64,000 nt of DNA from assembly GCA_031763025.1 (NCBI GenBank), contig JASSKH010000026.1, forward strand, positions 6,994,408 through 7,058,407, in the 5' to 3' direction. Made by a program: the position numbers and the translations under genes. This DNA comes from Macrocystis pyrifera (lineage: Eukaryota; Sar; Phaeophyceae; Laminariales; Laminariaceae). Below the pieces are notes generated by a model. It made no database searches. It worked only from the letters and a program-made list of their open reading frames with translations, and was not told the origin of the DNA. Positions 21,816 to 63,853 of this stretch are shown in pieces. The number at the start of each line of letters is the position of its first letter. Position 1 is the stretch's first letter.

Positions 21816-21907
21816 TTATATATACCTGTAAATTTTAAAATATTTCTCAATATTATTAATAATTATTTGTTCCCGAAACGGGACTGCAGTCCTACTATTA
21901 ATATTTT

Positions 21908-22085
21908 ATGACTATATCTTTAACAAGGAATCACATATAGAATACGCGCGCTCGGTTTATCACAATACTTGTAAAATTCGGTAAAAATGGAATATTGACG
22001 AGGCATATTACGCAGCTTTCAAAGTTGAGTATCAACTATTTAATCAGTCGAACTCACAGCTGACGTATTTCAAAATTTATAAAAA
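21908..22085 (+). repeat. Interspersed repeat F, copy 1
   Basis: About 175 bp matching 28884-29046 in reverse complement (AACAAGGAATCACATATAGA, GCGCGCTCGGTTTATCACAA, AGTTGAGTATCAACTATTTA). Unknown class. Confidence 0.65.
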
Positions 22086-22169
22086 AAAATAAAGGTAACC
22101 AACCTCTCATAGCGGTATCATACGTACGAGTAGTCAGTAAATATGACGACCGTTTGTTATTAATAGTAA

Positions 22170-22870: not shown

Positions 22871-22882
22871 CTATTAATACTA

Positions 22883-22996
22883 TTACGGGGGACTATAGTA
22901 AATAGGACCTACGGTACACACAAAAACCTACCAGGGTATGCATTTACCTATTTTTACTTACAATATTTGGTCCTATTTACTATGATCCCCCCGTAA
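22883..22996 (+). mobile_element. MITE family A copy, tandem with a truncated one
   Basis: Complete copy with an approximately 9-bp internal variant, TA on both sides. The right-hand TA is shared with a second, truncated copy at 22999-23050. Confidence 0.85.
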
Positions 22997-23223
22997 TATT
23001 ACGGTGGTCCATAGTTAATAGGACCGATGGTATACACAAAAACCTATATTTAATGTGAAAACAACGTACCTGGTACACCCATATCCAGCAACAGGCAAAA
23101 CCGATTTCCGTGCCGACCTTCAATCTTCTGTGCTCACCAAACTATGCCACAGAGATACTGCTGGTGTACATTGTTATGCAGTAAGCAGAGTAGACACTTA
23201 ATGTGAAGAACACACACAACATA

Positions 23224-23328
23224 TTACGGGGGTACATAGTTAATAGGACCTATGGTATACATAAAAACCTATATATCTACATTTTTTTACTAACAAAATT
23301 TGGTCCCGTTAACTATGGACCCCCGTAA
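23224..23328 (+). mobile_element. MITE family A copy in LINE 3'UTR
   Basis: Complete, TA flanks at 23222-23223 and 23329-23330. Confidence 0.85.
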
Positions 23329-24002
23329 TAGTAAGCGAAGTAGACCATGTAACAGACTGTAGTGTAATGCCGTGTCATCGTACGGGATACGACGGGCACC
23401 ACATACACATTCTGTGAAAGAGAGAAATACTACGTAAATCAATAAAAAAAGGAAATCGAAATAAAAAGGAAAAAATGGAAGAAAAAAGTGTCGTGCCCCC
23501 CCGTGTGGTAGGTGGTAGGGGATGAGGCAGAGCAAACAGGACGAGCTAAAGCAACAATAGCATTTTCTGGTGCATATAAGCAGAGTAAGAATAAGAACCA
23601 AGGGAAATAACAGGCAAACCGAAGCACACCAGTAAACAACGAAAAATACCCTCCAGCAGCAGTTTGTGGTACGAGTACGAGCATAGACAGGTTCCACCTA
23701 CTACGGCAGTCGGTCCGGTACCTTTCTACTCTTGTCTGCTGTCTCCGTCCTGCTTTGGTCAGTCATGACCCACCCCCGGAGAGGATCTGCCAGACAGTAC
23801 GAAACAAGCAAAGCAGACTCCTCGTCCACCCACGCCACAAGACTCCTGTGACACGGAAAAGCAGGAAGAAATCTAGGAAGAAGTAACAAATAAGAAAATC
23901 ACGGAGGATCAGTGCGCAAGTAGAAGAAAAGTCAAAAGGGAGACCACGTTCGAACCAGCTGCAGCAGTTGGCGGCACGAGTAGCATAGGCAAGTTGCACT
24001 TA

Positions 24003-25030: not shown

Positions 25031-26690
25031 CCCACGAAAACCCTGACCTCTCGCTCGAAATCGACCGACGGACCCGTCTCACGCGGGCGTGCCTCAAACG
25101 GTTCGGCCCGGAGCTGTATGATAGGACAACCGCCCCCCTTAGCCTGAAAGTCCGAATGCTGAAGGCGGAGGTGATTGAGACCCTGCTGTACGGGTGTGTG
25201 AGGTGGACCCTCAGAGCGGAACACTTTGCCAAGCTTCGAACGGCTCACCACTAAGTCCTTTCGCGAGTCGTTGGCTTCCAGCGCCGACTTCGTACTGACC
25301 ATGCCACCCTCTCGTACGTGAAGGCCCTCAAGATGACACGTTGCGAGAGCATCGAAACGACCATCCGTAAACGGCGGCTCTTCTTCGCGGAGGTCGTGGC
25401 ACGGCAAAGCAAGGAGCGATTACCCAGTCGGGTAACTGGTGGGGAGAACCCGAAACCTGGCGGACAGTTCAAGACCTGGCATAGATGCATAGTCGAAGAC
25501 CTCAGGGAGATCCCAGCCACCGAAGGAGCAACGGAACTTGCCCCCTTAGTGTTTGGAGTTGAGACCGCACTGTGGTCCACTGCACAGCAAAAATTGCGGG
25601 GAAGTGGTACCGGGAGGTCCTCGAAGGAGCCGAACGGTTCATGGTGAGTTGGCACGAGAGGATGAGGCACAGCTGAGTAGGCAGCGCCGCAAATCCGCAG
25701 TGGGTGGTGTCCAAGGGAAGGGGGGGAGGGGGGGGCAACAGGGAGTAGAAGGAAACCCGAACAAGGGAATGCGGGGAGGGGGGGGAACAGGAGGAACAGA
25801 AGGGAAACCGCGGTGGACGAAAGTAGGAAGGAGATGGCAGACAGGGTAGCAAGGCACCAGGCCGACTAGGAAGTAGAACATGCCTATGCTACTCGTGCCG
25901 CCAAATGGTGCAGCTGGTTCGAACGTGGTCTTCCTTTGTCTTCTTTTTTATTTTTGCGCTTGATCCTCTGTGTTTTTCATTTTATTTTTTTCTCTTCCTT
26001 TCTTCTTTTGATAAGCCTTGAGAAGGGAGCCGTGTGGCGTGGGCGGATGACGAGCCTGCTTTGCTTGTTTCGTATTGTCCGACGCCGAGGGGCGGGGCAT
26101 AGTTGACGAACGCAGGACGGAGACGGCAGACAGGGTAGCAAGGTACCAGGCGGACTAGTAGGGAGAATCTGGCTATGCTACTCGTACCACAAACTGCTGC
26201 GGCTACCTGGAGGGTGCTTTGTGATTCAGTTTGCGTGTTATTTTCCCCTGGTTCCTATTAATAGTCTTACTCTGTTTATAAGTAGTGATGTTTTTAGCCC
26301 GTTCTTTTCGAGTGTCTGCCACATGCCCTGCGGGGAGGCACGATATATATTTTTTTTTTTTCTCCTTTTCTGTTTCGATTTGTTTTCTATATTTTCTTGA
26401 CTTTTTGTTTATCTTTGTCCTCTTTCGTTTTCTCTCTTGCATATAATGTGTGTGTGTCGTGCTTGTCATATCCAGTATGATATGACATTGCATTGTCTAC
26501 TCTGTACCGTGCTTGCTCCATACGCAACAATGTGTGTGTGCAATAGTATCTCTGATGTGGCGTAGTTTTGTGACCACAGAACTTGCATCTCTCTAGGATT
26601 GAAGAATCGGCACGGACACTGGTTGTGCTGGATTTCGACGGGTAGAAAGAATGTTTAATGTGAAGAACACCCACATATATTTTCACCCTG
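25031..26690 (+). mobile_element. LINE 3' half, right arm of an inverted duplication
   Basis: Plus strand reads [20 protein letters not shown], then [20 protein letters not shown], then the C-terminal tail to about 25865. The 3'UTR with its internal duplication follows (26090-26220 repeats 25800-25930). It ends TTTAATGTGAAGAACAC at about 26665-26681. The joint with the left arm near 25030 is a short palindrome: TCAGGGTTTTCG at 24976 and CGAAAACCCTGA at 25037. Confidence 0.82.
26256..26263. other. TATTAATA, candidate MITE excision footprint
   Basis: This LINE 3'UTR copy reads GGTTCC-TATTAATA-GTCTTAC, whereas homologous copies (minus strand at about 13.02 kb and 23.59 kb) read GGTTCT-TA-GTCTTAC and GGTTCT-TA-TTCTTAC. 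The difference is TA changed to TA-TTAA-TA. Other occurrences start at 21854, 21896, 22158, 22872, 32102, 33003, 37346, 41558, 46407, 53578, 54711, 55251, 55282 and 63743. Confidence 0.6.
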
Positions 26691-28745: not shown

Positions 28746-28749
28746 CCCT

Positions 28750-31998: not shown

Positions 31999-32515
31999 GG
32001 GTCTATAAACCTCTTGCCCATCCCCTCTGTTCACGCATGCCAACGATTCAATACCTCTCCACAAAGCTCAGATTTCCTCCGTTCAATCTTCTACTATCTA
32101 CTATTAATATATAATACTCCTACTATCATGCTCTGTCCACTACTGATTCATTCATACGAATGATACGCAAGCAGTTATGTGTGCACGTAACGTATGTAAT
32201 GACGTACGTATGTCGTGCCTGCCGTATCGGGTACTGGAGAGGTATAACGACCCGGATACACCCGCAAATGGTTCATTATGCTCGGCTCTCAAGTTTTTGG
32301 TTTGGTTTTAGTGCTGAACCACTTGCCTATACGAAGTTTGCTTTGTGCACCCGCTCTATTTTTTCGTTTTCTTCCAAGCTCCTTCACCCTTGGCGACCTA
32401 TCATGTCACTTTATTCAACATCGTACTCCAAACCGGGTACGACTTGTGATTAATTTTTGGTCAAGTCACGTCGCTCGTGGTGGGGTTGTGTAGTTGACTC
32501 GATTACAGGCTCAGC
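31999..32515. other. Right half of the split repeat, then no recognised feature
   Basis: 31999-32090 completes the repeat begun at 28750. The rest is unassigned and contains a TATTAATA at 32102. Confidence 0.5.
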
Positions 32516-32790: not shown

Positions 32791-33535
32791 CATTTTTCGC
32801 CCCAACCATAACATAAAATCACTGGCAAAAATATTGACCAGTAGATTAGCACTGCTGCCAGTTGCCTGTTGCCGCTTCATATATACTTGTGCCAGTGCCA
32901 GCCGTTCAGTTTTTTTTTCCCAAAAATATTTTGGTTGTGTGGAACTCGGCTCGATGTCCGGATGCGTACGTCAATCGTACCTACCGCCGTACACGCAGCT
33001 ATTATTAATAATAGCTCTGTTGTTTGCTCCTTTTCCCCCCTTGAGCAGAGGAATTTGTAGGCGATAATTGCAAGATATGTCTTTTAAACGATTTTAGTAC
33101 TGCAGTCCCGTTTGGGTGACAAACTACTTGAACTTTGACTGGTTTGTTCCCAACACGGTACTGCGGCTCTAAAAGGGTTAACCGATCGTCCGGTAATCTT
33201 CCAGGGGTTGGGGTGGTTCGCTGTTGGTGGGCTAAAATACGAAGCAAGAAGCCCCTTCCTGGTGGGATCAAGATGGGCGTACAACCAACCAATAACTCCT
33301 ACGACCCCAACCCTAACCAAAGATGCCAAGAGACAGCGTTTTCACCCCTTGACAGACGGACAGCAACTTTTGCCTTGACATGCCTTGACTGACACCAATA
33401 TACTAGGCTTTAGTGTGGAACTCTCGCGCCCTACACCCTTCACAGCGCAGGATTTGCCTTCCTTGACATGTCTCCTGACGTCTTTGACCCTATGACCCTA
33501 ATCTTCAAATCATCACCCTGACCCCAAACCGGACC
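32791..33535. other. Mostly unassigned; includes a MITE C copy
   Basis: MITE C at about 33094-33182 ends CGGCTCTAAAAGGGTTAA. This is the empty-site counterpart of the MITE A insertion at 42522. Nothing else recognised. Confidence 0.5.
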
Positions 33536-33837
33536 AACAAACGGCCCGAAATCGGCAAAATAAACGCGATTGCCCCGCTTGAGCATTTCGTTTTGTTATT
33601 CCGAACGAGCTGACCACCAGTTCCCCTCTTTTAGACCATTATATAGTGCTGTCCATCGCCCGGAAACGTCCCGGAAATATGGTATCGAATGAAATGTGAA
33701 CACTATGTACCGGAGATAATTTCAAGTTGAATACTTGCATGCGGGTTGTCTTTTCTTTTTACCCAGTTACATCAACACTGAACACTATCAATAGCTGATC
33801 AACACCCTGTCGACGGGCAGAAATTAAAGGTAGGACC
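33536..33837 (+). repeat. Direct repeat, left copy (about 300 bp)
   Basis: Matches 35235-35530 in the same orientation: CCCCTCTTTTAGACCATTA, CCCGGAAATATGGTA, CAACACCCTGTCGACGGG. No TG…CA ends or adjacent primer site seen, so I do not call it an LTR. Confidence 0.65.
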
Positions 33838-34010
33838 CTGAGTTCAATTACCCGGGTACCCGGCGGGTATACCCGTCAGGGTCCTACCCGTTTGACGGGT
33901 AGAGTCCGAGCTCATTACCCGCGGGTAATCGGAGCCTGAAGGGTAATTGGGTTGTCGGGTACCGGGTACCCGGGTACCCGCGGGTACACGAAAACCCGCC
34001 TGTAAGGTAT
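33838..34010. repeat. GGGTACCCG island, left
   Basis: Dense nested palindromes of ACCCG/CGGGT (TACCCGGGTACCCG, ACCCGCGGGTA). A second island lies at 34960-35110. Confidence 0.7.
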
Positions 34011-34959: not shown

Positions 34960-35110
34960 ATGTCCGGGTACCCGGCAAAAAAAAACGGGTACCCGGGCAC
35001 CCGGTCGTCAAAATGGCATTACCCGGCGGGTAGGGTAGGGTCCGGGCTCCAAAATTTGGCGGGTACCCGTTCCTGGCGGGGTGCACGTTCTGGGCGGGTA
35101 CCCGCAGGGT
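34960..35110. repeat. GGGTACCCG island, right
   Basis: Same word set as 33838-34010 (GGGTACCCGGCA, CGGGTACCCGGGCACCCGG, GGCGGGTACCCG). Confidence 0.7.
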
Positions 35111-35124
35111 CCAACCTCTACGTA

Positions 35125-35229
35125 TTACGGGGGACCATAGTAAACAGGACCAAATATTGTTAGTAAAAACACCTAAAGATATAGGTTTTTATGTATGCCA
35201 TAGGTCCTGTTAACTATAGACCCCCGTAA
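35125..35229 (-). mobile_element. MITE family A copy
   Basis: Complete, reversed orientation, TA flanks. Confidence 0.85.
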
Positions 35230-35234
35230 TAGTA

Positions 35235-36882: not shown

Positions 36883-37930
36883 AAATAAGAACAAAAGACA
36901 GTAAAACATAAACAGTTACCAGGTATGATATTGACAGTTACCTGGTACCAGGTTGAAAAAATAACTTACCAGGCAGGCTGAAGACAAACATACAACTGCT
37001 CCTCGGACGAAGCAGGACGAAGAAGAGGAAGCTATGCCATGGGGGGAAAAAAAAAAAAGGAAACACGAAACGAGAAACAATGCAAGTAGTGAAAAAGACG
37101 CGAGCAGATAAAGAAACCGTACTCAACAGGGGGGGATGATAACATGGGCTGCCGTCTCCGCTGCGAAGTCGATCCGGGGACCTTGTCACTTGCCCACACC
37201 CTCCGCCGTCTCCTTCTTACTGTCGCTAATAGCGGTGTCGACTGTCAGCATAGCCGCTGTCGCCCCCCCCCCCCCCCCCGCGTTGAAGAACTCAACAAGA
37301 AACAGCTTACTCCTGCTATCGTCTTGTAGTAGACTCCAAGGGCTCTATTAATAGCAACACACGTTCCACTCGTGGCCCCGATACCTCGCGACACCATCTA
37401 CCATTTCGTTCCTGCGTTCGTCGACAGCTGTACCCGTACGCCTTCCCCCCTCTCCTCCCCTCCCCTCCCGCCCTACCCCTATCAGCTCGGGAGAATTACA
37501 CAACAAGAGTCGTCCTGGTGCATGCTCCCAACAGACGGTTGATAATGATTTTCGTCTGCGATACATATTTTTTTGATCGCGTTTGTAGACGCATATAAAT
37601 GAATCTCTTGGTCTCAAAAGGGTTGAAGAAACAACCTTTCAACGTGTTTTTTTTTTTGTAGAAACGCCCGTATTGACTTTGATTTGTGTTTTGAACACTC
37701 AAGACTGAATTTATCAATGTACATATGTTATGTGAACATTGCTTCGGTGAAAAGTCGTCTTTGGGTTTCCTACCGAGGAAAGACGTACTGCTTTACTTTT
37801 GTGTTCTGAAATTTTGAAGAACGCAAAAGAGTCAATGGACCATGCGTGGGCAACCAACGAGGCGAGCGAAGACACGCGTCCTCTCCAGAGCGCCGTGGCC
37901 AGCGGAAGATTGTTTTCGCCGGGACTGGCT
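36883..37930. other. No recognised gene
   Basis: Holds TACCAGGTA words (36915-36965), a C17 run near 37266, a pyrimidine-rich stretch and a TATTAATA at 37346. Confidence 0.4.
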
Positions 37931-37931
37931 A

Positions 37932-38042
37932 TTACGGGGGACCATAGTTAAATAGGACCACATATTGTTTATAAAAATAGCGGAGTATATAGGTTTTTGC
38001 GTTTACCGTACGGTAGGTCCCATTTACCATGGTCCCCCGTAA
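37932..38042 (-). mobile_element. MITE family A copy
   Basis: Complete, reversed orientation, TA flanks. Confidence 0.85.
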
Positions 38043-38449
38043 TAGTGGTAATGTTCCTTGTGCTAATTTCATATTTGTTGTTACTTTTTTGTGTTGTTTA
38101 TGCGTGCTTCTTTTTCTGTGTTGGGAGGTATGTTTCCTGACGGTGTTGAGCAACGATGGTGACCATCAACCTCGGACGATACACGAAAAGTAGAAGCGGT
38201 CAGGTACGCTGCGGTACGTAATCCAGACGAAAAGACAGACAACACCGGAGAAAAAGATGGGCGAACACTCCCACCACGAAGCGGTCGGAAGGAAACCTGG
38301 AAAACTACCTGTGCGGTGAGGCGTCCTAACTCAAAACAAACGCGATAAAGTAGGTCGTGCTAAAAATCTTACCGATTGGTGTTCTGTCACGTTGGCCGGC
38401 GTCGTTTACTCTCCCTCCGTGTGTGGCAGCAAGCCGGGTGGCGATCTCC

Positions 38450-41372: not shown

Positions 41373-41645
41373 TACGAGTAGTAAAGTGTCGGGGGACAAA
41401 TCGTGGTCCGCAGTTCGGAATAGTTACCAGAAAAAAACAAAAGCGGCACAGCGGCGATTCTGGCCCTGTTTTTCGGACCCTTTTTTGGTCAGGGTTGAGG
41501 TTAGAGTTATAACGGGTTGGTTTTTTTTGGGTCTACGCCCGTGCCCTTGGTCCACACTATTAATAATAGGAGATGCTTTCTCTAGCCCACAACAAACGAA
41601 ACACTCCCGACACCTGGAAGGTCCTGCGGGAGGGACACTCCGTTA

Positions 41646-42517: not shown

Positions 42518-42521
42518 ACTA

Positions 42522-42628
42522 TTACGGGGGGTCCATAGTTAATAGGACCTATGGTATACATGAAAACCTATATATTTGACTATTTTTACTAACAATATTT
42601 GGTCCTATTTACTATGGCCCCCCCGTAA
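42522..42628 (+). mobile_element. MITE family A copy inside a MITE C
   Basis: Complete with TA on both sides. The uninterrupted MITE C at 33.1 kb reads GCTC-TA-AAAGGG where this one reads GCAC-TA-[MITE]-TA-AAAGGG, so TA is the duplicated target. Hybrid termini: left TCCATAGTTAA type, right TTTACTATGG type. Confidence 0.9.
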
Positions 42629-42825
42629 TAAAAGGGTTAACCCCCTTTTAAAGATATTTATGTATGTAGACCCCTCCCCCCGCCCGTTCTGGAAAGAAAC
42701 AAGCTTTTGAAATGTTTTTGGAGGCAGGTGTTTCTTTTTTGTGAGGTGGCAGAAGAAAGTTAACGCCGAAGGTGGCGACTATCCGCGCGAGAGGGTCGGA
42801 TGCAACTTTCTCCGCCTCGGACAGC

Positions 42826-43205: not shown

Positions 43206-43208
43206 CAG

Positions 43209-43233: not shown

Positions 43234-43300
43234 AATCAAACTAATTTGACGCTGTCATCCATGTATATCGATATATATATGCAACAAAAAGTACCCACTA

Positions 43301-45908: not shown

Positions 45909-46878
45909 GTAAGTAAGAGTTCGAGAATGGGGGTGGGGATGAGGGATCGGGGTGAGGGGTGGGAGCGGGGTTGGCGATTGCGGTGGGCGGGAGGTGTGCG
46001 GAGTGTGGTGTACGTTGAGAATACCCGAGGGTGTATACAGGTCGCACAGCGCGCTCTCGACGAGTAAGGCGAACTTCGTCGATGCGTCGCAACTCGACTT
46101 CAACGCGTGCCTGGGGGTGGGTTGCCGCCTGTGTGTGGTGCGATGGAGCGCGTGACTTTGGGGGCAGGTGCGATGAAGGCACCACGGGTTTTTGTTGATT
46201 CCTTTTTTTTTGTTTTTGTTTTATATTGATATTTTTTTTCGTGTCGGATGTTTTTTCCACTGTAGCTTAGTGGTGGATGTTGGTGTTGGTGTTGATGTTT
46301 TGGCGACGTGGGCACTGGTGGCGTTGGTGGTGGCAGCGTTAGTGACGTGCTGGTACTGGTGTTGATTGTGGTGGTATGATGTTATTGTTGGATGGGGGGG
46401 GGGTCTTATTAATAGTAGTAGCCCCTGAGTGTGTGGGTTTCCGAAGAGTCGTGGGAGCAACGGGACTTGTAACGGGTGGAAGTTGATCGAGCTGGGAGTA
46501 TTTTGATTGTTCAGCTCACCGCAGATTTGGTGGTGTTGTTGTTGTTGTTGTTTGTTGTTGTCAAGGTGAAGATTATACTAAGAGGAGCGAGAAAAGGGCC
46601 AGAAGAGATGGAACGGTGCCTTCATGTCAGGGGTCTGTGGGCGAAGACACTCGGCCTTTACAGGCCCCCCGTGTTTATCTGTCACTCCCCCTTTTGAGAA
46701 TCAACCTGAACGTCGCTATCCCTCGAGACCACTCTGTGAACGTCGCTCGGAACGGCGCACGTTTTTTGTGGGGGCGTTGCTTTGTCCCTCGCTCGCTGCT
46801 GATCTTGCCCTTGATGGTGTGCGTTCTTGCTTCTGCTGCTACCGTTCCCGCCGGCGGCGCTGTTATTGTTGTCGATGT

Positions 46879-46922: not shown

Positions 46923-49900
46923 ATTCTACTACTGCTGCTGCTGATTCTACGACTGCTGCTGCTATTGGTGGTGGTGGTGGTGGTGGCGGTGGCGATGTTT
47001 TCTGCCACCGGGACACCCATCTGTTCTTCGTGGGTTTGTGTGCCTCAGAGCATCCATCTGGACGTCGAGCTCGCGCTCGTGAAGAAGGCGATGGTGATCA
47101 TCGCGCTGAGCTACGTGGTCGCCTTTGTGCTGCGGTTTCGCGCGGGAGACCTGTGAGTGCGCCTCACGAGTGAAATAACGCTGTTTTTTTTACTCTTAAC
47201 CTGGTACAAATGACGGTAGTAGCGATCATACAATATTCAGTACACTGCTGTTCAGGGTCGTTTTTTTTTGGCAAACAATCTGGCAAAAGTTGGCATACCA
47301 GGTATGTATAGTCTACGCATGGATACTTGGAACTTGCGAATTCGGCAAGGGGTTTGCTAAGCGTGTTTTTTTATATCCTCCCCAACCCTTCGTTGGCAAG
47401 TTTGTGGAAATTTAGACTTGCCGTTTCATCTGGCAAGGTTTTTGTCAAGAACTGAAGGTAAAAACTTGCCAGAAGTTGCCAGCTTGGTTTGACAAGTTTT
47501 CACTGTCAGTAGAAACGATTATTAGGTGGCGACTTTTATAATTTTGTGTTGGTGACTGAAAAAGAAAGGAAGTCGGATTTTCCACCGGCGAAACATGCCA
47601 CCAGCACCGTTATTAGCGCATGTGCAAGAGAGCTAGCTGTGTGTTGTATGCCTTTCGTGCGTGGTGTGGCGAGTTCATCGATTCCCTCTATTTTCCATCG
47701 GTTTCTCATCGACAGCACATACATGGCCAAGGCTGTATTCGTGCTCGTCGTGTTTCCTCCCCACCGGTATGCTCCACGAGCGTGGATGCGTATTGCATTT
47801 TTTTTTCATGTTTTGTTGTCCGTTTTTTTTCGGATGTCGTGGTTTTATGTCAATTATTTCTATGTTGTCGGTTTTGTTGCAGCTGCTGTTCAGCTGTGTG
47901 TTCGTCTTTTTTTTTATTGATTGTGGTTCTTTTATGTATGCTTTTTGTTTTGTCTCTCATCAATCTCGTGCGGTCTCTTCTCTCTCTCCCCTCCCCTCTC
48001 TTTGTATTGCGTGCTTATCCTGTGCGGTAGGACCGAGAAAGTGAACGTTGTTCTGATGGTCTGTTTCGTGTCGATCCTGCTTCTGTCGTATCCCACCATC
48101 CGCCTCATCGTGCGGGCCTTGGCGTATATTGTCACCAATTGGGCGCCCGGAGTGCTGTATCGAGGAAACCGGTGAGGGTCATGCTTGCTGACTTTTTTCT
48201 GCCCCGCTGCTGTTTTTGCTCGCTTGTTTGCTTGTCTGCTTGCTGTCGTACGGTACTTGCTTGCTTGCTTGTTTATTGGCTTTACTGTACTTGCTTGCTT
48301 GCTTGCAAGTGTGTTTGCTGGCCTTTTCTTTCTCGCTTAGGTTTGTTTGATTGGCTGCTTTGTTTATTTGCTCCGACAGGAGGGGGGGGGGGAGGGGCGG
48401 CGGCGGCGGCGGCGGCGGCGGCGGGGGGCGGGGGGTCTGTCGAGTGGCGATCACGACTAGAAACTTGTTTGCGTTACGTTATACGGTAGTCTTGGCTACA
48501 ATAGTTACTAAACCTGCGTAAAACGTGTAAGTTGTCCGGGGGTGCGCAGATAGTTATTACGGGGTACATAGTTAATAGGACCTATGGTATACATAAAAAA
48601 AATATATATATTTACCTATTTTTACCAACAAAATTTGGTCCCATTAACTATGGACCCCCGTAATAGCAGCTTTGTAGACTGCTATGCTGTAGTTTGTTTC
48701 TCCGTTTATAACTCAACTAGCTGATCGCTAGGGTATTGTTGTCGCATCTCATTCGGTAGCGGACGCAAAAACCACGATCGGGGTGTTTGACGAGAAGCCA
48801 CCCTATTGCCGCCGTTCTCACACGGGCCTGAGCATGCTGTTCTATTGCCGCCTATTCCAAGTAACATTTTTTCCTACAGCAAAACCGTTTGTTGGGGGCG
48901 GGTATTCGAGATTGCAGAGAGTTGCAGCCAGCATCAAGTTTGCTCACGCATGGTAGTTCGTTCAAGGACTCCCCTTTCGATGCCGAATAGCCCATTTGAC
49001 GATGCCACCTCCATCTAGGGGTCGTGTTGGTGATACGTGCTTCGCTACAGCAGTAGCCAGTAGCCTACCGAGTCGCTGGTCGGTAACATTGTCATCTATA
49101 TGTCAGAGCACACTAGTATAGTGTATCCAAGTACTGCGTACTTGAAGGAGTGATATTGTCTGGCACACGATGAAATATTGATGCGTGTCGAGACGCTGTC
49201 TCTGTGAAGAGAGGCTCAGAGGTGGCACGGAGTGTGTAGAACGTTGCAGTGAAGAAAATGTAGGGGGTCAAAGAGGCGCTTGTGTGGCCATTGCGAAAAG
49301 GAAGGGGAAGCTTGATCTCTAGAGAAGAGAACAAGAGGCGACAAAAGGGAGACCAGATAAGAAGTGAAGTGATGGAAGTAGGCAGGGCTGTCACCTGATC
49401 ATCCCGGAAATATGTACAGACTACTCTACGGGCTGTTGCGTTGACCGACAATCCGCCCTACAACATTACCTGATACTTATGGTGGCAAGATACTGTAAAT
49501 GCTCTGCGCTATGGTCAACGTCCCCATCACGGCTAGTTGAACATGCCATATGGCGAACAGAGAAGAGGAGCTACTGTACTTATTTTGTAGTCTCGCCGAA
49601 TGCTGAGTTTAACGGAATACGGAAACAAAGACACTCGTATGCTCGTGGTCGTGCGTAGTGACTGCACATCAAATAGATGATGCATGGGTCTCCACGTCCC
49701 TATTCTAATATGCCACCGTGATGAAAAATAGTAGCCAGAGTAATGCTTACGGTGTTGAAACCTGAGACTCGGAAAAATCGAAAACACTAAATGGTGCAGC
49801 ATATTCTTCAGGGCTGCGCGATGGCAGCGACACTACAGCAGAAACAGCACACAAAAAATGGAACAGCATGTGCAGGTATGCCTCCTTGGCGCGAAGGGCG

Positions 49901-52900: not shown

Positions 52901-55900
52901 GCGATAAACAGCCGTCGACGTTCTATCAGCGAGCATAAGGTTTTTCGGTTGATCGCCAGCAATAGTGGTCAACTGCCTCACGTAAATTCAACACTGAAAA
53001 TGAGGACCCTTTCCTCGCAGGACGTGAAATTAACGTTAGGATTTTGATTTAGGTGGGCGACATTTATCCATTCCTGACTCTAGCGGATTAATTTTAGTCT
53101 TTTTTTGGAGACGATGCACGCTGCACATTGGAACATGCGCGCACCAACAGCAAAATCAGCCATTGTGTGGACATCGGGTTGTCGTTCGATGTTTCCCGCG
53201 GAGTGTTTGTTCGGAAGGGTGGGGGGACATGGCCCTTGCGGCTGGAGAGGGCAGGGTCAGGAGAAATAGGACCAAATATGTAGGTTTTTGTCTGTACCGC
53301 TAGGTCCTATTAACTATGGTCCTCCGTAATAAGTAGTTTTGGTGGTGTAGGGGTTGTTGGAAACATCGTTTCACGCTTTCGCTTTGTCTTGGTGTTGGCG
53401 GATTTTATGTCATTATCTCATCACGTTTTTAGTTGTTGATGGCAAAAAAAAAATGGTCATGTACCACTCTATCCGTTAGAGCCCACGTTAACGGGGAACA
53501 CTAAATTTCGTTCAATCAGATGCAAATTAAATTAGAAAAAAAAAAAATGCAAGTCAAATTGAAAGAACCGAAAGTCCTATTAATAGCTAAAGATGGGCCC
53601 TTAATAAACTTTAAAAGCTTTGCAGGTAGTATATTCAAAGTAATGCTTTATCAATACGGTACTTATTTTTACGGACAGAGGTGTCCCTGAATATAATTAA
53701 CATTTGTATACTAATGTTTAATCAATACGGTACTTATTTTTACGGACAGAGGTGTCCCTGAATATAATTAACCTTTGTATACTAGTGTTTAATCAATACG
53801 GTACTTAAATTTAGGGACATATATGCCCCTGAATAGTAGTAATTTTTATGTACTATTGTTTAATCAACACGGTATTTATATTTACGGACATAGGTGTCCC
53901 TGAATTTAATTAAATTTTGTATACTAATGTTTAATCAATACGGTACTTATATTTACGGACAGATGTGTCCCTGAATAGAATTAACCTGTGTATACTAATG
54001 TTTAATCAATACGGTACTTAAATTTAGGGACAAATATGCCCCTGAATAGTAGTAATTTTTATGTACTATTGTTTAATCAACACGGTATTTATATTTACGG
54101 ACATAGGTGTCCCTGAATTTAATTAAATTTTGTATACTAATGTTAATAAATACGGTACTTATATTTACGGACAGATGTGTCCCTGAATAGAATTAACCTG
54201 TGTATACTAATGTTTAATCAATACGGTACTTAAATTTAGGGACATATATGCCCCTGAATAGTAGTAATTTTTATGTACTATTGTTTAATCAACACGGTAT
54301 TTATATTTACGGACATAGGTGTCCCTGAATATAATTTAATTTTGTATACTAATGTTTAATAAATACGGTACTTATATTTACGGACAGAAGTGTCCCTGAA
54401 TAGAATTTAACCTTTGTTATACTAGTGTTTAATCAATACCGTACTTCAATTTACGGACATATATGTCCCTAGACAGTAGTAAAGTCTATGTACTATTGTT
54501 TAATCAATACCGTACTTATATTTACGGACAGAGGTGTCCCTAGATGTAAATATATTTTGTATACTTGTACTAACGTTGAGTCAGTACGGCACTTCACACG
54601 TATTTACGAGACACTACCAAAGAGACAAGCAATACTCCCGATAACCCGGTCGGCACGATAGGATTACGTCGCCCCTGTGCTCTAGTGGTTACCCTCGAAT
54701 GCTACTATTCTATTAATACTTATACAAGAGTTGATTCTTGAGCGACTTCGAATCCCACACTGCTGTCGCGAGAGATATTTTGAGTTTGTTTGCACCTGCT
54801 GATGAGAGCGCGTAGCGTGGGTATAGGCGCGATTCCAACCGAGTGGGCTTGGGAAGACAGGGCTGACGAGAACTGTTTCTTTCGCGATAAAAAAAGCAAC
54901 TCACGAGCCATCGTAGTGGGGAAAGGGGGACGGAAAACCTCTGTAGTGTGACCCGGGATTTGAGTTACGGCTGAGAGGGACAGATAAACGAAGGGCGTGA
55001 AGGTAATAAAAGGGAGGGGGGAAAAAAATATTTTTTCAAGGGAAGTAGACATGGAAGGTAGCTAGACGTTGTGCATGGGTTTCCTTTGTTTCCGGGGTTT
55101 TCTTGTTCCAGGAATGTTTCGAGTGATCAACGTTGAAGCTCATGCTGCACATTGTCGGATGGCGAGCCTAATTGTGTTTAGTTATTAACACTTCGATTCT
55201 ACATATGTAATTCGAAGCATACATGATGGACAATCAAATGGAGCAATATATATTAATAGTAGACGTGTACAATAGCGAGGCTATTAATAGCTTGCCACTC
55301 TGATTGGAGAAAAACGGTTGACACACCCCGTGCACGAGGCGAAAGGAACCCGAACTCTAAGCCAATCAAGCACAATCAAGCGTTGGCTAGCGTTGTTAGC
55401 TTTCTCTCGTCCGCGGTGTACGCCCTACTGACAAGCGACAGGATCAGGATTCCTGTTTTGATTTTCGTTGGGGTTTTCCTTTCTTTCTTTCGTTCTTTCT
55501 TCGGAATAGAAGTGTACCAGGTATACGTGTGATCAGCGTTAGCTTTTACTCTTCCACACATATAATCGAATTATGACAAAACGATCAGACTCTTGTGGCG
55601 TACTGGTACAAAACTACCGGTATTACTGTAGCTCTATTATCACAACAATATATTGCGTCCACGCACGCCTCAGTCGATTCGTCCGCTCCACTTTTTTTTT
55701 ACCACTGTAGCTTGGACCCCCACCCTGCCCCTGTACACCGTACGAGGATACGTTCGTCTCCGTTTTATTTCTGCTTGGTCTAATCCCTTGTACGATCCCC
55801 TCTCCCCCCCCTCTCTTTTCGTGCGCACCCTCGCCTTTTTCTCGTCGGAAAACCCGTAAAAAAGGTACTACTTTTTGGTGGCTCTCCACCATGACATCGC

Positions 55901-58900
55901 CATTGTCATCTGGTCAATTTTGTCGATGATGGTCTGGATGCAGCTGTTCTACGCGTGGGTCTACCCAGAAGAGTCGCAGGACGCCCGACGCGTTTTCACC
56001 ATTATCGGCGCCGTGCTCAAGGTGTAGTTGGTTGTAATCTATTGGGTGTGTAGAAACATGCATGCACCTCTCCGCCAGCGTGCGCTACATACACACACAG
56101 CATGGCCGGTGAAGTCATTAAGTAGCATCGGAGAGGCTTTGCACGGAGGTGCGTGCTTTCAGTTGGAGGTTCGGTGTGTTTTTTTTACCGAATCGTACAC
56201 CGAATCATATACCTCACCGAATGAACGGGTACAGCAGCACAGCAGTGTTTCCACTAGACCGTGTACCGCAACCGCTCCGCACCGCGCCGGCAGGATTAGG
56301 ATTTTCACAAGTCAGGATCGGCACTGCACGGCACTGCTGCTGCACCGTACGTTTTGGTTTCGTTTCGTTTCGTTTTTTTTTTTTAATCATCCCATGTATT
56401 GTCTCGCCCTTCTCTTTTCTCCCTCCTTTTTTCGGCGTAACTCAGATCCGGCCGGGATCATCACACCCCAGGCTCTCTCCTCCCCCCCTCGCCACCGTAC
56501 GGTTGGTGTCTTTGCTTTTTTTTTTTTTCATCGCGAGAATGCTTGATGGCCTTTATTTCCGTCGTCGGCTCCCGTCGAATTGATGATGAAAACCTATTAC
56601 GGGGGACCATAGGTAATAGGACCTATGGTATACATAAAAACCTATATATTTACCTTTTTTTACGAACAAAATTTGGTCCTGTTAACTATGGTCTCCCGTA
56701 ATATAATCCACACCTACTTGCTGTATGCCAGGTATGTGTACGTAACGTGAAATAAAACCGACCCAAAAAATACCGGGTAATACACTCCTCGGTCAGATAG
56801 ATGGTGGTGATCTACAGATAGATCATGATCTACTCTGTAGATCATCCAGTTCCTCTTCACTTGCCGTTGTCAGAGGTTGTGCAGGATCTGCATATGGTGT
56901 TACGGGGGACCATACTGTAGTAAGTAGGACCTACGGTACACACTAAAATCTGTATATTTGCCTATTTTTACTAACAATATTTGGTCCTATTTATTATGGT
57001 CCCCCGCAGTGGTGCAGATCCAACGCAGGCAAGACGCGCTATTACGGGGGTCCATAGTTAATAGGACCTATGGTATACATAAAAAAAAATTATGTTTACC
57101 TATTTTTACTCACGATATTTGGTCCTATTTACTATGTATGGTCCCCCGTAATAGATTTTGCAGATTGTACGGGTCCCACCCGGCAACGTGATGAACTAGA
57201 TCATACGAGATCGGGAATAGATGATATATCTGCCTTGAAAGATCTAGATCGTGATCTGTGGATGATCTGTCCAGCGCACCCTGGACAATAGACAATGGCC
57301 AGTGCAAATAGCAATATAATATAGCGCAACGGACGTGCCTATTGCCGTCGGTAGTCTATCGATTTACTACTACAGGGGTCCATAGTTAACGGGACCAAAT
57401 TTTGTTACTAAAAATAGGCAAATATATAGTTTTTTTATGTACACCATAGGTCCTGTTAACTATGGACCCCCCGTAATACTTCTATGAGTCTATTGTCGCG
57501 GGTGGTGGCCATCGATTGGACTACTTCCCCATGCATTGTCGTCGGTAGTAGCTATCGATGGATCACATCCCCAAATCCATTGTCACTGGTGGTGGCTGGC
57601 TATCGACTGGGTGTTCCACAATCTGTTGTGGCGGGCGATGTCTATCGATGGATCACATCCCCAGTCTGTTGTCACCGACGTTGGCCATCGATGGATAGAT
57701 ACTCCCCACAATCTACTATTGTTGTTATGCTTGCCTTCCGACAGCGTGTAGTGTTGTTCTAAAAAAGATTGAGGAGCAGAAAGTGAAGAGCTCTCCAGAA
57801 CATAAGCGCGGCAGTACCATACATACGACAAATCAAAACCGGTGTGACGCACGTGAAGACTGCAAAAAAAAAAAGCACAAAAACAAAAAAAAACATGGAA
57901 GACTACCACCACCAACATCCCTCCGTATCATCCCCACCAAAAACGACCACTCCCCTCCTTGAGCACTCCCTAACAAGCATCTACCAAAACCCCGATGTCC
58001 ATCAAAATGGTTGGTTTGTACCTGCTACGCGCATGGTTCGACGTGCAGAAGGCCGTGCGGTGTTGTTGTTGGTCGACACTGCCACCGGTGGTGCCTAGGA
58101 GAGAGTCCCTGCCGTCTTCCTCTCTCTGTAGCTCTTCTACCTCCTCCAACCCCTCCCCCCACATACTACTACTACTACTACTACTACTGATATTTACGGT
58201 ACCCCTGACTCTGCCACCTCCAACCGCAAGGGCCCAGTCCTCCCCTCCGAGCACTCCCGAGGAAGCATCTGCCAAAAACCCGCTGTCCATAAAAATGGCT
58301 GGTGTATAATTCCCCTCGTTTATTGTTGCTGGCAATATATACATCGATACATTATACTATCGCCTGTTGTCGCTGGCAATATCTTTCGATGTGTTTTTCC
58401 CTCGTCTATTGTCGCTGGCAATAGACCATGATGGGTCTATTGTCCAGGGTGTGTTTCTGTAGATGCTCTGTCCCCGGTCTGGAAACGATATCACTCTCAC
58501 CCAGCCACGTTTACCGCTTCCTTCTCTCTTGGACCCACGTCAAGGCGCCGCTGTTTGTCTCTCCTTCCCCCCCCTCTTCCCCCTCCTCCCTCTCAAGTCC
58601 TCGCAGCTCACCCTTTCATGGGACTCGCCCAACACCTCACGGCGCTTCGCGCTTGGTGCAAGTAATGTCTGCCTGGTCGGTGAAAACCCGACGTGCTCCG
58701 TCCCGGCGTTGTAGGGATGCGAGGGTCTATGGTCATATGACTACGGCCATGCACGATAATGAGTACACCCTCTCGAGTCCCCCAAATTCGATCCATCTGT
58801 GCAGTGCTCAACGCGTTTGTGTTCGGAGTAAATAAAAGCAGGGATGTGTGGTACTGCTATTACGGGGGGGCCATAGTTAACAGGGCCAAATATTTCTAGT

Positions 58901-59776
58901 AAAAATGCCTAAATATGTAGGTTTTTATGTATGCCATAGGTCCTGTTAACTGTAGACCCCCGGAATAGTCATAGCATTAAAGTGAGGACGTGTACACCGG
59001 CAGCACGAGTGTGCGAAATCTGTAGATGTGGAAACGTCTCGCAAGAACCGCTGCCAAAAAAAAAAGCTTTCGAACGGTTGAACCAGGGGATGGATCGCTA
59101 CCATCCCCTGTTAAGTACACTGCTCAAAATTCACCGTTGTGCGCCTCCTGTTCCATCACCTCTTATCACCCGCCCGAATGTGTATCAATGCGCATCGATC
59201 CAATTTTTTTTCTGCTGCACCTGCAGTACGAGCGACATGTTGCTCTATTAACAGAATGTCGAGAACAAAGGGGTCTCAGCTATATATAGAGGCATTTTCC
59301 ATCAGGGGACGGCACAAGAATCTCGAAACCGCCAAAAAAAAAAACGGAAACTGCATGTGGTGTTGAGAACAGATGATAACCTGGTACCGATATCACACGT
59401 GCCAGAATAAAAGTGGCTCGAGCACACGCTGCCAGCTACCACGAGATGCGCTCTCTGATCCACCGCGGTTTCATTCTGCAACCGATCGGGAAGCAGGCCA
59501 AAAGCTGATCCGCCGCAGTTCCTCTCTGCAACGGATCGGGACGCGGGCCAAAAGCTGTGGCGTGCAACGAGTAAAAAAATCCGTACTGCGAAGTATACAC
59601 GGATGTATCTCGCAATCGTTTGGTGTTGCAGTTGTTTGCTGAGTATTTGTCCGGGGTGGACGGCCGGTACATTGCGCGGCGCGCCGTTCGCGACACGACA
59701 CAAAACGAAGCAGCGTGACGTGACGTGACGTGACACGGGAGCACGGCACGTTGCGCACGTGCCTACCCAACCTGAA

Positions 59777-59826
<50 letters not shown>

Positions 59827-62275: not shown

Positions 62276-62309
<34 letters not shown>

Positions 62310-62635
62310 AAGGTGCGGACGAAATCAACGCCTCCGGGCATCAAAGCAGGCGAGACCGTAACTCAATGGATATTCAGGTTTCGTCAATCCCTGAAGAAGA
62401 TGAGGACGCTCTGGAAAGAAGCGGAGAGATCGCCGGGGGGAAGGACAGGGACGGCGTGGGAGAGGTGGAGGAGGAGTCACCGGAGGCAGGCGGAGGGTCG
62501 ACGGAGGAGGAGGGGGAGGTGGAGCCGGTGGAGGTCTTGGTGAGGGAAACGCTTTGCCCGCCGCTCGACGAAGAGCTGATTAACATCGCGTTCTCTCATT
62601 TTGACGAGGACAATAGTGGCACTGTCACGAGGGAG
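45429..62635 (+). CDS. MscS-like mechanosensitive channel (plant MSL10 type), 5' and middle part
   Basis: Seven exons (45429-45908, 47049-47152, 48031-48171, 55865-56021, 59847-59945, 61087-61283, 61702-62635) with GT/AG borders and matching phases at all six junctions, giving 704 codons. The gene continues past the window. Order: Ser/Arg/Pro-rich cytoplasmic N-terminus (1-160); hydrophobic segments in exons 2-5 (AMVIIALSYVVAFVL; VVLMVCFVSILLL; IAIVIWSILSMMVWMQLFYA; LALWVGILVKNFLVLLVATS); then YLQRVQ-SSILAQYILLLL, a long Gly/Ser/acidic insert, and an EF-hand loop. Plant MSL10-like channels share this order, including a …RIQ…QYVLQTL stretch after the fourth helix and an EF-like motif before the MscS pore. 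Expected role: membrane-tension-gated anion release at the plasma membrane. Family assignment is recalled from known MSL sequences. Confidence 0.75.
45909..47048 (+). other. Intron 1 of the channel gene
   Basis: Contains a TATTAATA (46407) and a CTG-rich tract (about 46870-46970) close to the acceptor. A coding-looking segment at 46041-46115 (SALSTSKANFVDASQLDFNA) does not fit the phase of exon 1 and is left out. Confidence 0.55.
47049..47152 (+). CDS. MSL-like channel exon 2 (first membrane segment)
   Basis: Acceptor GTGTGCCTCAG, donor GTGAGT at 47153. Reads SIHLDVELALVKKAMVIIAL then SYVVAFVLRFRAGD; codons split 2+1 into exon 3. Confidence 0.75.
48031..48171 (+). CDS. MSL-like channel exon 3 (second membrane segment)
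   Basis: Acceptor GCGGTAG; the G completes Leu, then TEKVNVVLMVCFVSILLLSY and PTIRLIVRALAYIVTNWAPG. Donor GTGAGG at 48172. The next intron is 7.7 kb. Confidence 0.75.
48557..48663 (+). mobile_element. MITE family A copy in intron 3
   Basis: Complete, TA flanks. Confidence 0.85.
48664..49900. other. Intron 3, unassigned
   Basis: No repeat or coding region recognised. Confidence 0.4.
49900..52050 (+). mobile_element. Decayed reverse-transcriptase element in intron 3
   Basis: Sense orientation. 51685 on gives SSGVRQGD and, in a nearby frame, ALFYMPLFAVAEADSEKSSI; 51793 on gives AFVYLIDISIGMMEVTGDAA then EVVPFLYRELANTSLAVSPR, the region of RT box C and the following helix. A partial duplication of the last part follows (ELANTGVAVNPRKTVALPPK at about 51920-51980). 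Upstream frames are long but unrecognised. It is a different RT family from the LINEs at the left and carries many stops. Confidence 0.5.
52050..53260. other. Intron 3, unassigned
   Basis: No recognised gene or repeat. Confidence 0.4.
53264..53329 (-). mobile_element. MITE family A, internally deleted copy
   Basis: Right terminus CCTCCGTAA and AAATAGGACC part retained; left terminus missing. Confidence 0.65.
53493..53609. mobile_element. MITE family B copy
   Basis: GAGCCCACGTTAACGGGG … AAAGATGGGCCC with TTA on both outer sides. Contains an internal TATTAATA at 53578 that other copies lack. Confidence 0.75.
53640..54575 (+). repeat. 71-bp satellite with three-unit higher-order period
   Basis: Thirteen or so units; TCAATACGG landmarks at 53651, 53722, 53793, 53864, 53935, 54006, 54077, 54147, 54218, 54289. 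Three unit types (ACTTAAATTTAGGGACA; ACACGGTATTTATATTTACG; GGACAGATGTGTCC) cycle in order with a period of about 212 bp. Each unit has a GGACA…TGTCC dyad. Confidence 0.9.
54670..54775 (+). other. tRNA-like sequence (SINE or tRNA pseudogene)
   Basis: A-box-like TGCTCTAGTGGTTA and B-box-like ACTTCGAATCCC about 75 bp apart, with a TATTAATA between them (54711). Acceptor pairing is poor, so not a functional tRNA. Confidence 0.4.
55865..56021 (+). CDS. MSL-like channel exon 4 (third membrane segment)
   Basis: Acceptor GTAAAAAAG; reads YYFLVALHHDIAIVIWSILS, MMVWMQLFYAWVYPEESQDA, RRVFTIIGAVLK. Compare plant MSL10 LYFVYGLKKSVQVFIWLALI. Donor GTGTAG. Confidence 0.78.
56597..56701 (+). mobile_element. 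MITE family A copy in intron 4
   Basis: Complete, TA flanks. Confidence 0.85.
56900..57007 (+). mobile_element. MITE family A copy
   Basis: Complete but right end altered (CCCCCGCAG). Confidence 0.8.
57042..57151 (+). mobile_element. MITE family A copy
   Basis: Complete, TA flanks, hybrid termini and a small duplication near the right end (ACTATGTATGGTCC). Confidence 0.85.
57370..57476 (-). mobile_element. MITE family A copy
   Basis: Reversed orientation; left terminus CTACAGGGG. Confidence 0.8.
57481..57725 (+). repeat. Degenerate tandem repeat, period about 43-47 bp
   Basis: Units of (C)TATTGTCG…GGTGGTGGC-CATCGATGGATCACAT-CCCCA, five copies. Similar words resume at 58311-58450, the two parts being separated by unrelated sequence. 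Confidence 0.7.
57955..58310 (+). repeat. Direct repeat of about 70 bp flanking an (ACT)n run
   Basis: 57958-58020 and 58238-58310 share GAGCACTCCC, AAGCATCT-CCAAAA and CCATAAAAATGG-type words. An ACT microsatellite is at 58164-58190. Confidence 0.6.
58602..58770 (+). repeat. Interspersed repeat G, copy 3
   Basis: Closely matches 44585-44770 (reverse) and 43450-43635. Confidence 0.65.
58860..58965 (-). mobile_element. MITE family A copy
   Basis: Reversed orientation, TA flanks. Confidence 0.8.
59455..59560 (+). repeat. Tandem duplication, about 49 bp x2
   Basis: GATCC(A/G)CCGC(G/A)GTT … AGGCCAAAAGCTG repeated with few differences. Confidence 0.8.
59779..59823 (+). repeat. C45 homopolymer at a 3' splice site
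   Basis: 45 consecutive C ending 23 nt before the acceptor AG of exon 5. Confidence 0.85.
59847..59945 (+). CDS. MSL-like channel exon 5 (fourth membrane segment)
   Basis: Reads CHLALWVGILVKNFLVLLVA then TSYLWRPYLQRVQ (33 codons, phase 0 both ends). A C45 run lies 23 nt upstream of the acceptor, and a MITE A starts 12 nt after the donor. Confidence 0.8.
59958..60063 (+). mobile_element. MITE family A copy 12 nt after a 5' splice site
   Basis: Starts CTACGGGGGTCC, ends ACCCCCGGAA, TA flanks. The first base lies 12 nt into intron 5. Confidence 0.85.
60427..60530 (-). mobile_element. MITE family A copy, most diverged
   Basis: TTACGGCGGGACATAGTAA … GTTTACTGTGGTTCCTCG; internal sequence still alignable. 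Confidence 0.65.
61087..61283 (+). CDS. MSL-like channel exon 6
   Basis: Acceptor GCGAGCAG. Reads SSILAQYILLLLTDYSLKGT, then …LEMVRQGNESKKKISLYAVS and MGFIPRNKLEHSFF. The SSILAQYILLLL part corresponds to the conserved post-helix segment of MSL channels. Donor GTACGA. Confidence 0.78.
61632..61654 (+). repeat. C23 homopolymer in intron 6
   Basis: Lies about 45 nt before the exon 7 acceptor, after a stretch of CCCCAA(T/C)CCTAAC words. Confidence 0.85.
61702..62635 (+). CDS. MSL-like channel exon 7 (linker and EF-hand loop)
   Basis: 311 codons: TIIGNYLFDKLISRSRPKIS PWVAAVTATAGKG-like start (conserved SxW position), then a disordered linker with poly-Gly (62273-62309), HHHG and long Glu/Asp tracts. 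It ends at PLDEELINIAFSHF followed by the EF-hand loop DEDNSGTVTRE (positions 1-11). The intron at 62636 (GTGCGT) separates loop residue 11 from the twelfth, which must be in the next exon. Confidence 0.75.
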
Positions 62636-63853
62636 GTGCGTGCGCAACTTTTGTTGTTGTTGTTGAGTATTTTGTGGTCGTTTTTCAGTGTTTTTGGTTT
62701 TTGTGTTGGGAGGTTTTCATCGAGATACGTTCCCTGAGAAACGGGATCGGCATTTTGTTTTGAATAATTGTTATGTGTGTGTGTTTTTTGTTTTGTTGGT
62801 TTTAGTTGAAACGTAATTTCTGATCTAAACGATCAGGATGGTGCTGCCAAAAGCTATATGCGCTGGTATACCCGTACCGTGCCAAGGTACACGGAGAGGC
62901 GAAGGCTGCAGACTGTTGCCGGAAACGTACCGGTAATCTGTCTAGAAAGTGAGCACGGCATGCTATTGTGGCCTCTGGCGCAGATTGTTGAAGGTGTCTG
63001 CCAACCGATAGCTAGCCCTTCAACACCCCGCAGAGTTCATCATCTGCTGCACTGTAGATCATCTAGTTCCCCACCTGCCATCGTGCGAGGTTGTGCAGAA
63101 ACTCGCCCTGTACCAATCCAACCCAGAAATCTTGTGCTAGATCACGCAACAAAATAAGCTACATCATACAGATCATACATAGTGGGAGTTTTTTTGCCCC
63201 GAAAGGTCTAGGTGATGAACTGCAGGAATTCGACGATTTGTCCGAGGTGTGAACCTTTTTGCAGCTGCAACCTCGTTTTTTGAGAAGCCACTCGAAATAT
63301 TTAGAGTCTCGAACATTTTTTTGTGGCAGTCCAGTGGTCATACTACTCTAGTATCAGTCGTTGCTTTTTCGGCATGAGCACGTGCCCCGCGTGGGATTGC
63401 TTGCAGGCGCTTAACAGGATTTCACGGCCTGCGCTTAACGTACACACCGGCGTGAAACTGCCTTTTAGGCGATACGCTTTCGTCGAGGATTGCGCGCTGT
63501 ACCTCTCTCTCCCGCTCGCTCTCTCTCTCTTCCTACGCACGGTTTTTTAGTCTTCCAACGTGTTTGCTGTGGCTTGATTGAAGAGTGCGTTTCCCCGCTC
63601 CACGAGAGTGCCGGCCAGTCTTGGTTGGAGCGCTGCACAAGTCCGACACGTAATCCTCGTCATATGACCTATAAACCTTTTAGCGACATGATATGTTTCC
63701 ACAATCTGAAGGATCTGTACGAGCCGTACAATCTGTGTTGTCTATTAATAGGATAATTCATCCTTCCGGGGTTGGATCTGTGCTGTTTACAGATCCTTCC
63801 TGAACGACCCATCAAAGGGGCAGGTTAGGGACGTACTTGAATGGTCCACACTA
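62636..63853. other. Intron 7 (part): no exon recognised
   Basis: Starts GTGCGTGCG with a T/G-rich tract. Contains GATC-word repeat copy 3 (about 63035-63255, ending GATTTGTCCGAGGTGTGAA) and a TATTAATA at 63743. The next channel exon was not found. Confidence 0.5.

Follow-up and report, generated by a model that had tools for sequence, protein, structure and literature searches.

A Palindromic Octamer as a Probable Excision Footprint of a TA-Targeting Miniature Element in the Kelp Macrocystis pyrifera

Introduction

The sequence TATTAATA occurs 15 times in a 64,000-nucleotide stretch of the genome of the brown alga Macrocystis pyrifera (GCA_031763025.1, contig JASSKH010000026.1, positions 6,994,408–7,058,407; hereafter the window). 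The same stretch contains copies of a miniature inverted-repeat transposable element (MITE), here called MITE A, whose flanks and terminal bases could be joined into exactly this word. Why is a palindrome of eight bases so frequent here? The answer favored here, with a probability of about 0.93, is that TATTAATA is mainly the footprint of MITE A excision: the element inserts into TA, a transposase supplied from elsewhere cuts it out, and the broken ends are joined. The surrounding assembly has 537,376,219 bases in 223 contigs, in agreement with the published description (537 Mb, 223 contigs, 50.37% GC; PMC10498591).

Results

Structure and abundance of MITE A

MITE A has the structure TA-TTACGGGGG(A/T)CCATAG...CTATGG(A/T)CCCCCGTAA-TA. 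It is typically 109 bp with both TAs, the element itself being about 105 bp, and TTACGGGGG(A/T)CCATAG is present at both ends as terminal inverted repeats. TA is the target site duplication; copies are flanked by TA, and nested copies lie at a TA within the MITE A that hosts them. Its end, TATTACGG, is seen 54 times on both strands in 272 kb, and the inner word GGACCTATGG 18 times. By extrapolation, these correspond to ~106,000 ends and ~35,500 copies per genome, although the sampling error of all such extrapolations from samples of 272–294 kb is large. MITE A is thus short, non-coding, bounded by inverted repeats and present in tens of thousands of copies by the same extrapolation, as MITEs are.

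The excision of piggyBac is traceless, and its target is TTAA. Filled sites of MITE A read TA-TTACGG...CCGTAA-TA without duplication of TTAA, and piggyBac, which duplicates TTAA at insertion, was rejected as a candidate.

Excess of the palindrome

A sequence-only reading of the window had reported 15 copies of TATTAATA. Exactly 15 are present, every start is right, and there are none elsewhere in the window (Table 1). None of the other AT-only palindromes of eight bases exceeds this number, the next being ATATATAT and TATATATA with 12 copies each. In 23 coordinate-chosen stretches of 10 kb, TATTAATA is observed 34 times, whereas base composition predicts 3.2. When the window is added (294 kb), it scores highest among all TA-N4-TA words, 49 against 1.7. 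Another sample of 275 kb comprises the window, 20 stretches, and four loci fetched as carriers of TATTAATA. Here the word reaches ~34 times its second-order Markov expectation, and among the 8-mers seen at least 30 times only poly-G and poly-C outrank it. Genome-wide, TATTAATA is counted 94,130 times and the same word read backwards, the type of control called "reversed" below, 7,522 times. The sequence-only reading had expected a genome-wide excess, and it is there.

One TA empty, filled and scarred

Because MITE A copies are so numerous, the TAs within their bodies are paralogous target sites seen thousands of times. Three of them are considered: site 1 (TTTAC-TA-ACAA), site 2 (GGTCC-TA-TTTAC), and a third site (GGACC-TA-TGG). 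Site 1 is found in three states. The empty state, TTTACTAACAA, is seen 13 times in 294 kb, or ~24,000 times per genome by extrapolation. The filled state is represented by its left junction, TATTTTTACTATTACGGNGG, with 689 matches genome-wide and none for the reversed control. Five of these loci were fetched, and four (L053, L055, L056, and L057) contain MITE A in MITE A at the TA of site 1; in L056 and L057 the right junction matches exactly, and in L053 and L055 it shows small changes. The fifth, L054, has a different host sequence and is not MITE A in MITE A. The scarred state, searched as TTTACTAT-NN-ATAACAA with the two middle bases free, has 348 matches genome-wide and none reversed; among 100 matches listed, 88 contain the exact scar and 12 differ at the free bases. 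The search contexts of scars and filled junctions are not identical, and the filled-to-scar ratio is therefore not exact. In L037, an outer MITE A is filled at site 1 by an inner MITE A, whose own site 1 is scarred. The outer fragment in L044 carries a likely decayed scar, TATTGATA.

TTAATA is an addition of six bases at TA, and one and the same TA occurs empty, filled and scarred. These three states at one site are what cut-and-paste excision leaving TA and terminal bases would generate, and such excision is their probable source. The sequence-only reading had suggested that MITE A has been cut out often. This is now supported by the excess of the word, by paralogs with a single TA, and by the states of site 1.

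The empty sites also bear on the possibility that TATTAATA is simply an unoccupied target, the element being CGGGGG...CCCCCG, the duplication the central TA, and TATTA/TAATA the flanks. A filled copy, TATTA-CGG...CCG-TAATA, does become TATTAATA when the element and one TA are removed, and preferred targets, like this word, are often palindromic. However, the site that takes complete copies (689 junctions) usually has a single TA, with ~24,000 TTTACTAACAA against 348 matches of the scar pattern. For insertions in the window, 14 MITE copies were tried, and at least two (42520 and 57040) have flank paralogs, while others align only to other MITEs. A single TA is found in both paralogs of the copy at 57040 and in one of two alignments for that at 42520. 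An unoccupied target would also leave the more than 10-fold excess of the 8-base word unexplained. Since empty sites hold a single TA, this explanation is rejected as very unlikely.

From the 100 listed matches, 20 exact scarred copies were fetched. Six of them have identical outer flanks and are one event copied by a larger repeat, while the other 14 have different flanks. The larger repeat is represented by L028–L031, L039, and L041, mostly on small contigs. If one scarred master MITE A had been amplified, all 348 cases could be a single event, and the repeat common to six of the 20 copies is an example of such copying. The 14 copies with different outer flanks and the lack of clustering make this exceedingly improbable. 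When the six are counted as one, 15 scarred copies remain, and 8 of them have another scarred copy as nearest neighbor; shuffling gives a mean of 7.5 (p 0.51), which indicates that scarred copies are not one subfamily. Scars also exist outside MITE A, at 26256 of the window and at L004:1501. The mean distance is 0.23 for scarred copies and 0.15 for unscarred ones; this gap may be a selection effect, as intact words were the criterion for choosing the unscarred set.

Target choice

Scars (98 half-sites) and MITE A ends (56) have similar preferences at flanking positions −3 (T/A), −2 (A), and −1 (C), and both are unlike TA dinucleotides in general. At site 2, the filled junction ATTTGGTCCTATTACGGNGG has 11 matches and its control none. 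The left contexts of sites 1 and 2 have similar frequencies (14 and 16 in 294 kb), so the 689 and 11 filled junctions can be compared fairly. Fillers at site 2 have 369 matches; among 100 listed, TTAA is absent and TT is present in seven, perhaps by slippage of TTTA or as a footprint of two bases. Insertions and scars share one target choice, and the scar is missing where MITE A seldom inserts.

This agreement between filled MITE A and scars in their usage of sites 1 and 2 also argues against another TT...AA element as the source of the scars, with which MITE A would merely share the target preference. The autonomous partner is unseen, and words resembling related ends (TATTTCGG and TATTCCGG) exist. 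In a scan of TA-bounded inverted repeats, TTACG starts more pairs than any other sequence (12 of 81), and no second TT family is prominent; another element is an improbable source.

Abundant palindromes are usually interpreted as functional motifs under selection, such as transcription factor sites, and a study of Phytophthora preferred such a role for TACATGTA over a Tc1 footprint (PMC3520976). For TATTAATA, this is extremely unlikely. In repeats it is a six-base presence or absence at TA, it varies by single substitutions, and its position inside MITE A tracks the insertion sites of MITE A.

Repair spectrum at site 1

When any filler of 0–14 bases is allowed at site 1, there are 343 matches and none in the control. 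Among 100 listed, TTAA is the commonest filler (29), followed by TT-N-AA (8), compounds containing TTAA (8, including a double scar and a TTAA+CTG pair), TTA or TAA (7), CTG or CAG (7), TT-NN-AA (2), and one-change forms of TTAA (2). Another 14 are unrelated, being tandem copies of a TTTTTAC-like sequence, and the rest are short or single cases. One listed match, TGGACCCCCGTAA, resembles the right end of a complete MITE A. The gain or loss of bases between TT and AA fits the end joining of ends that would have kept two terminal bases.

The process can be modeled as follows. MITE A would insert into TA, preferring T/A-A-C before it. A transposase, probably encoded elsewhere, would cut two bases in from either end of the element, leaving TA-TT and AA-TA on the broken ends, which, joined end to end, would give TA-TT-AA-TA. 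Joining would at times add or drop a middle base, resulting in TT-N-AA, TTA, or TAA. The predicted products are TATTAATA as the main one and TATTNAATA as a minor one. Transposon excision is reported to leave 3′ overhangs (PMC4423477), and by analogy the excision ends of MITE A might carry them as well. How the ends are cut, that they are repaired by end joining, and that the enzyme is of Tc1/mariner type and works in trans are inferences. Since MITE A is too short to code for an enzyme of its own, supply in trans is to be expected.

Paralogs of scars outside MITE A

Among the 15 copies of TATTAATA in the window, 26256 and 53578 are the ones informative by paralogs. The copy at 26256 lies in the 3′ region of a long interspersed nuclear element (LINE), and its LINE paralogs had been claimed to have a single TA. 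All six lack TTAATA and five of them do show the single TA (Table 1), but one near 23.59 kb reads TATTC. In the L013 paralog, another six-base repeat stands beside the site. The six bases were left out of this query, which favors alignments of this kind; with the word kept, two of three alignments show a 5-base deficit. For the scar at L004:1501, a paralog of 82% identity has a single TA. The single-TA allele at related repeat sites, on which the sequence-only reading had staked its case, is thus seen.

Further candidate footprints

Other words bounded by TA are also in excess in the 294 kb: TACCAGGTA/TACCTGGTA (72 against 2.5 expected), TACGAGTA (57 against 9.7), TACAGCAGTA (34 against 0.8), and TACAGTA/TACTGTA (76 against 41). 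The excess of the CAG-rich words may come partly from CAG repeats, which are themselves in excess. Among sites with usable paralogs, an empty single-unit paralog is found for 5 of 5 CCWGG sites (W, A or T; 81 sites in all), 8 of 12 CWG (92), 1 of 12 CGAG (61), and 0 of 2 CAGCAG (38). The controls are 79 of 341 for N4, 32 of 231 for N5, and 15 of 204 for N3. TTAA reaches 23 of 26, a biased figure, as this run pooled loci fetched for carrying the TTAA scar. Three of the five CCWGG sites are also in TTAA-scar loci, and one (L034) looks misaligned.

The fillers at site 2 of MITE A contain the same words. Among 100 listed, CCAGG is found in 25, CCTGG in 11, CTGG in four, CCGG in three (with similar singles), CTG/CAG in three, and CGAG in two; CCWGG thus outnumbers every other filler listed for this site. 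Several of the CCAGG rows come from small contigs and may represent copies of a single locus. A sample scan for inverted repeats with CC...GG ends beside TA detected 18 scattered pairs and no recurrent family. TA-CCWGG-TA is likely a second footprint family, for which no abundant parent element was seen; CGAG and CAGCAG as footprints are unproven. In the window, TACCWGGTA is located at 12890, 19945, 19965, 22386, 22795, 23067, 27883, 36917, 36939, 44908, 45332, 45355, 47296, and 55515.

Sleeping Beauty-type footprints are TAC(A/T)GTA. The fillers TA-CTG-TA and TA-CAG-TA at MITE A sites resemble them, as does the center of TACCNGGTA, which is A or T in 76 of 80 cases (the equal numbers of A and T are mere strand symmetry and have no meaning). 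In contrast, the TTAA scars of the kelp have four bases and no mismatch center. TAC(A/T)GTA itself is seen in the window at 44773, 44867, and 14 other places, and L019 contains single-TA paralogs for the two named sites.

It is somewhat more probable than its opposite that this genome is a fossil record of several TA-targeting families preserved as scars, namely TTAA, CC(A/T)GG, C(A/T)G, and perhaps CGAG, with the CCWGG family known by its scar alone. If all the excess in the 294 kb is scar, TTAA, CC(A/T)GG, and C(A/T)G scars together amount to about one per 2 kb.

Discussion

Observations that do not fit

Several observations weigh against MITE A excision as the origin of TATTAATA, or limit it. 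The first is the regional distribution. The scars had been said to be confined to the part of the window where MITE A occurs. No scar precedes 21,854, and the first end to run on into MITE A sequence lies at 18,952 (TATTACGG at 15,879 does not continue so), which agrees with this, but the numbers of scars and MITE A ends per 10-kb block correlate weakly (Spearman 0.43, p 0.02; corrected for AT content, 0.37, p 0.048). Some TATTAATA are of other origin; the one at L023:9741, for example, arose by mutation within MITE A itself. At flanking position −5, scars and MITE A ends are unlike. The third site has a scar in 0 of 4 pattern matches despite ~33,000–35,500 unscarred copies (extrapolated). A rough guess based on the flanks would be some tens of scars there, and the zero implies that three flanking bases do not suffice to explain target choice.

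The scar at 53578 had been described as splitting an otherwise conserved MITE B. The insertion is indeed absent from all five paralogs, but these read TC (three) or CC (two), not TA. This example is weaker than had been claimed, and as an individual case it is unproven. When the word is kept in the queries, 12 good alignments are obtained at 8 of 52 scars: eight show no net length change, three a deficit of 5–7 bases, and one a gain of 1. Three of the eight without change, from two scars, have paralogs carrying the word with one substitution. Clean gaps are few in this search, as the aligner readily closes short gaps and the word is present in some of the paralogs too. The corresponding control covered 1,129 TA-N4-TA sites; of the 326 for which paralogs could be used, 12 show a 5–7-base deficit, and three of these 12 words (TATTCATA, TATTGATA, and TATTAGTA) differ from the scar by one change.

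Finally, searches of the genome for three Pfam families did not detect a transposase bounded by TTACGG ends. DDE_3 (PF13358) yields no match. Transposase_1 (PF01359) also yields none, but its control matched in no genome either, and this result is uninformative. DDE_1 (PF03184) has 39 matches in the genome, and the five loci fetched (L048–L052, 5 kb each) contain no TATTACGG end; L049 has one lone TTACGGNGG. The DDE_1 genes at these five loci have open frames of up to 428 codons, and perhaps belong to another transposon family or are tamed genes. Introns could hide an autonomous partner. There is good support for MITE A behaving as a Tc1/mariner MITE does, and its membership in Tc1/mariner is unproven.

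Comparison with known systems

The ends of Tc1 are CA/TG, different from the TT/AA of the kelp element, which is moreover a MITE with ~90,000 scars. Similar to the proposal for MITE A, Tc1 of Caenorhabditis elegans targets TA and leaves the footprint TACATGTA, in which two terminal bases per end are kept (TA-NN-NN-TA; PMC3520976). That paper gives taCATGta as the Tc1 excision footprint, citing Eide and Anderson 1988, and terms the motif a rare footprint; in Phytophthora, TACATGTA is argued to be too conserved and abundant for a footprint. The kelp case shows that abundance alone does not exclude a footprint origin.

Stowaway MITEs mobilized by plant Mariner elements are also short, non-coding and TA-targeting, depend on a foreign enzyme, and leave short terminal bases (PMC4561436 and PMC4423477). 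In rice, the perfect footprint is perhaps rare (PMC4423477), whereas in the kelp the exact filler is the commonest among the matches listed for site 1. The ends are different as well, CTCCCTC for rice Mariner and TTACGGGGG for MITE A. Non-canonical footprints are reported for Hsmar2 (PMC3770610). In Ectocarpus, another brown alga, Mariner-Tc1 copies including TcMar MITEs are mostly non-autonomous (PMC12477816); the term footprint is absent from the main text of that article.

The excision mechanism as such is of a known kind. Its scale, the three-state evidence within one assembly, and the CCWGG scars are less routine, and no genome-scale count of scars in kelp was found among the open-licence papers listed, as judged by title. 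Transposon excision is hard to see in a single genome, but here ~90,000 exact copies of the scar make it countable. For brown algae, how often excision occurs relative to insertion, how ends are joined, and which families have died out become measurable from an assembly. If the interpretation is true, a high-copy MITE is its own excision reporter, and the target choice and repair spectrum of each family can be read without experiment. A palindrome can be enriched without being a regulatory site, and TACATGTA in Phytophthora may merit the same test.

Features of the Window

Table 1. Copies of TATTAATA and of MITE A, in window coordinates.
Feature	Position	Strand	Remark
TATTAATA, putative scar	21854..21861		AT-rich surroundings, weak case
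TATTAATA, putative scar	21896..21903		flank TAC
TATTAATA, putative scar	22158..22165		
TATTAATA, putative scar	22872..22879		full MITE A begins one base to the right
TATTAATA, probable scar	26256..26263		LINE 3′ region; absent from 6/6 sample paralogs, 5 with C/T-TA-GTC
TATTAATA, putative scar	32102..32109		flank TAC
TATTAATA, putative scar	33003..33010		
TATTAATA, putative scar	37346..37353		CTATTAATAG
TATTAATA, putative scar	41558..41565		
TATTAATA, putative scar	46407..46414		
TATTAATA in MITE B unit	53578..53585		absent from 5/5 paralogs, which read TC/CC, not TA
TATTAATA, putative scar	54711..54718		
TATTAATA, putative scar	55251..55258		
TATTAATA, putative scar	55282..55289		CTATTAATAG
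TATTAATA, putative scar	63743..63750		CTATTAATAG
MITE A copy	19409..19517		with both TAs
MITE A copy	22881..22998		second, truncated copy starts at its right TA (22997)
MITE A copy	23222..23330		109 bp with both TAs
MITE A copy	35123..35231		
MITE A copy	37930..38044		
MITE A copy	42520..42630		L013 alignments: one single TA, another AA
MITE A copy	48555..48665		
MITE A copy	56595..56703		
MITE A copy	57040..57153		single TA in paralogs at L024 and window 42,927
MITE A copy	63852..63960		

The LINE region at 12600–15600 was compared with the genome, where 40 of 5,603 candidates were scored. The 40 rows, including the window's own, span at least 2.5 kb at 96–100% identity, and copies of this identity indicate that the LINE was recently active. 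A tandem array of ~71-bp units occupies 53576–54565, its first reported copy starting at the scar at 53578. Long poly-C runs are present at 43197–43260 and 59745–59845.

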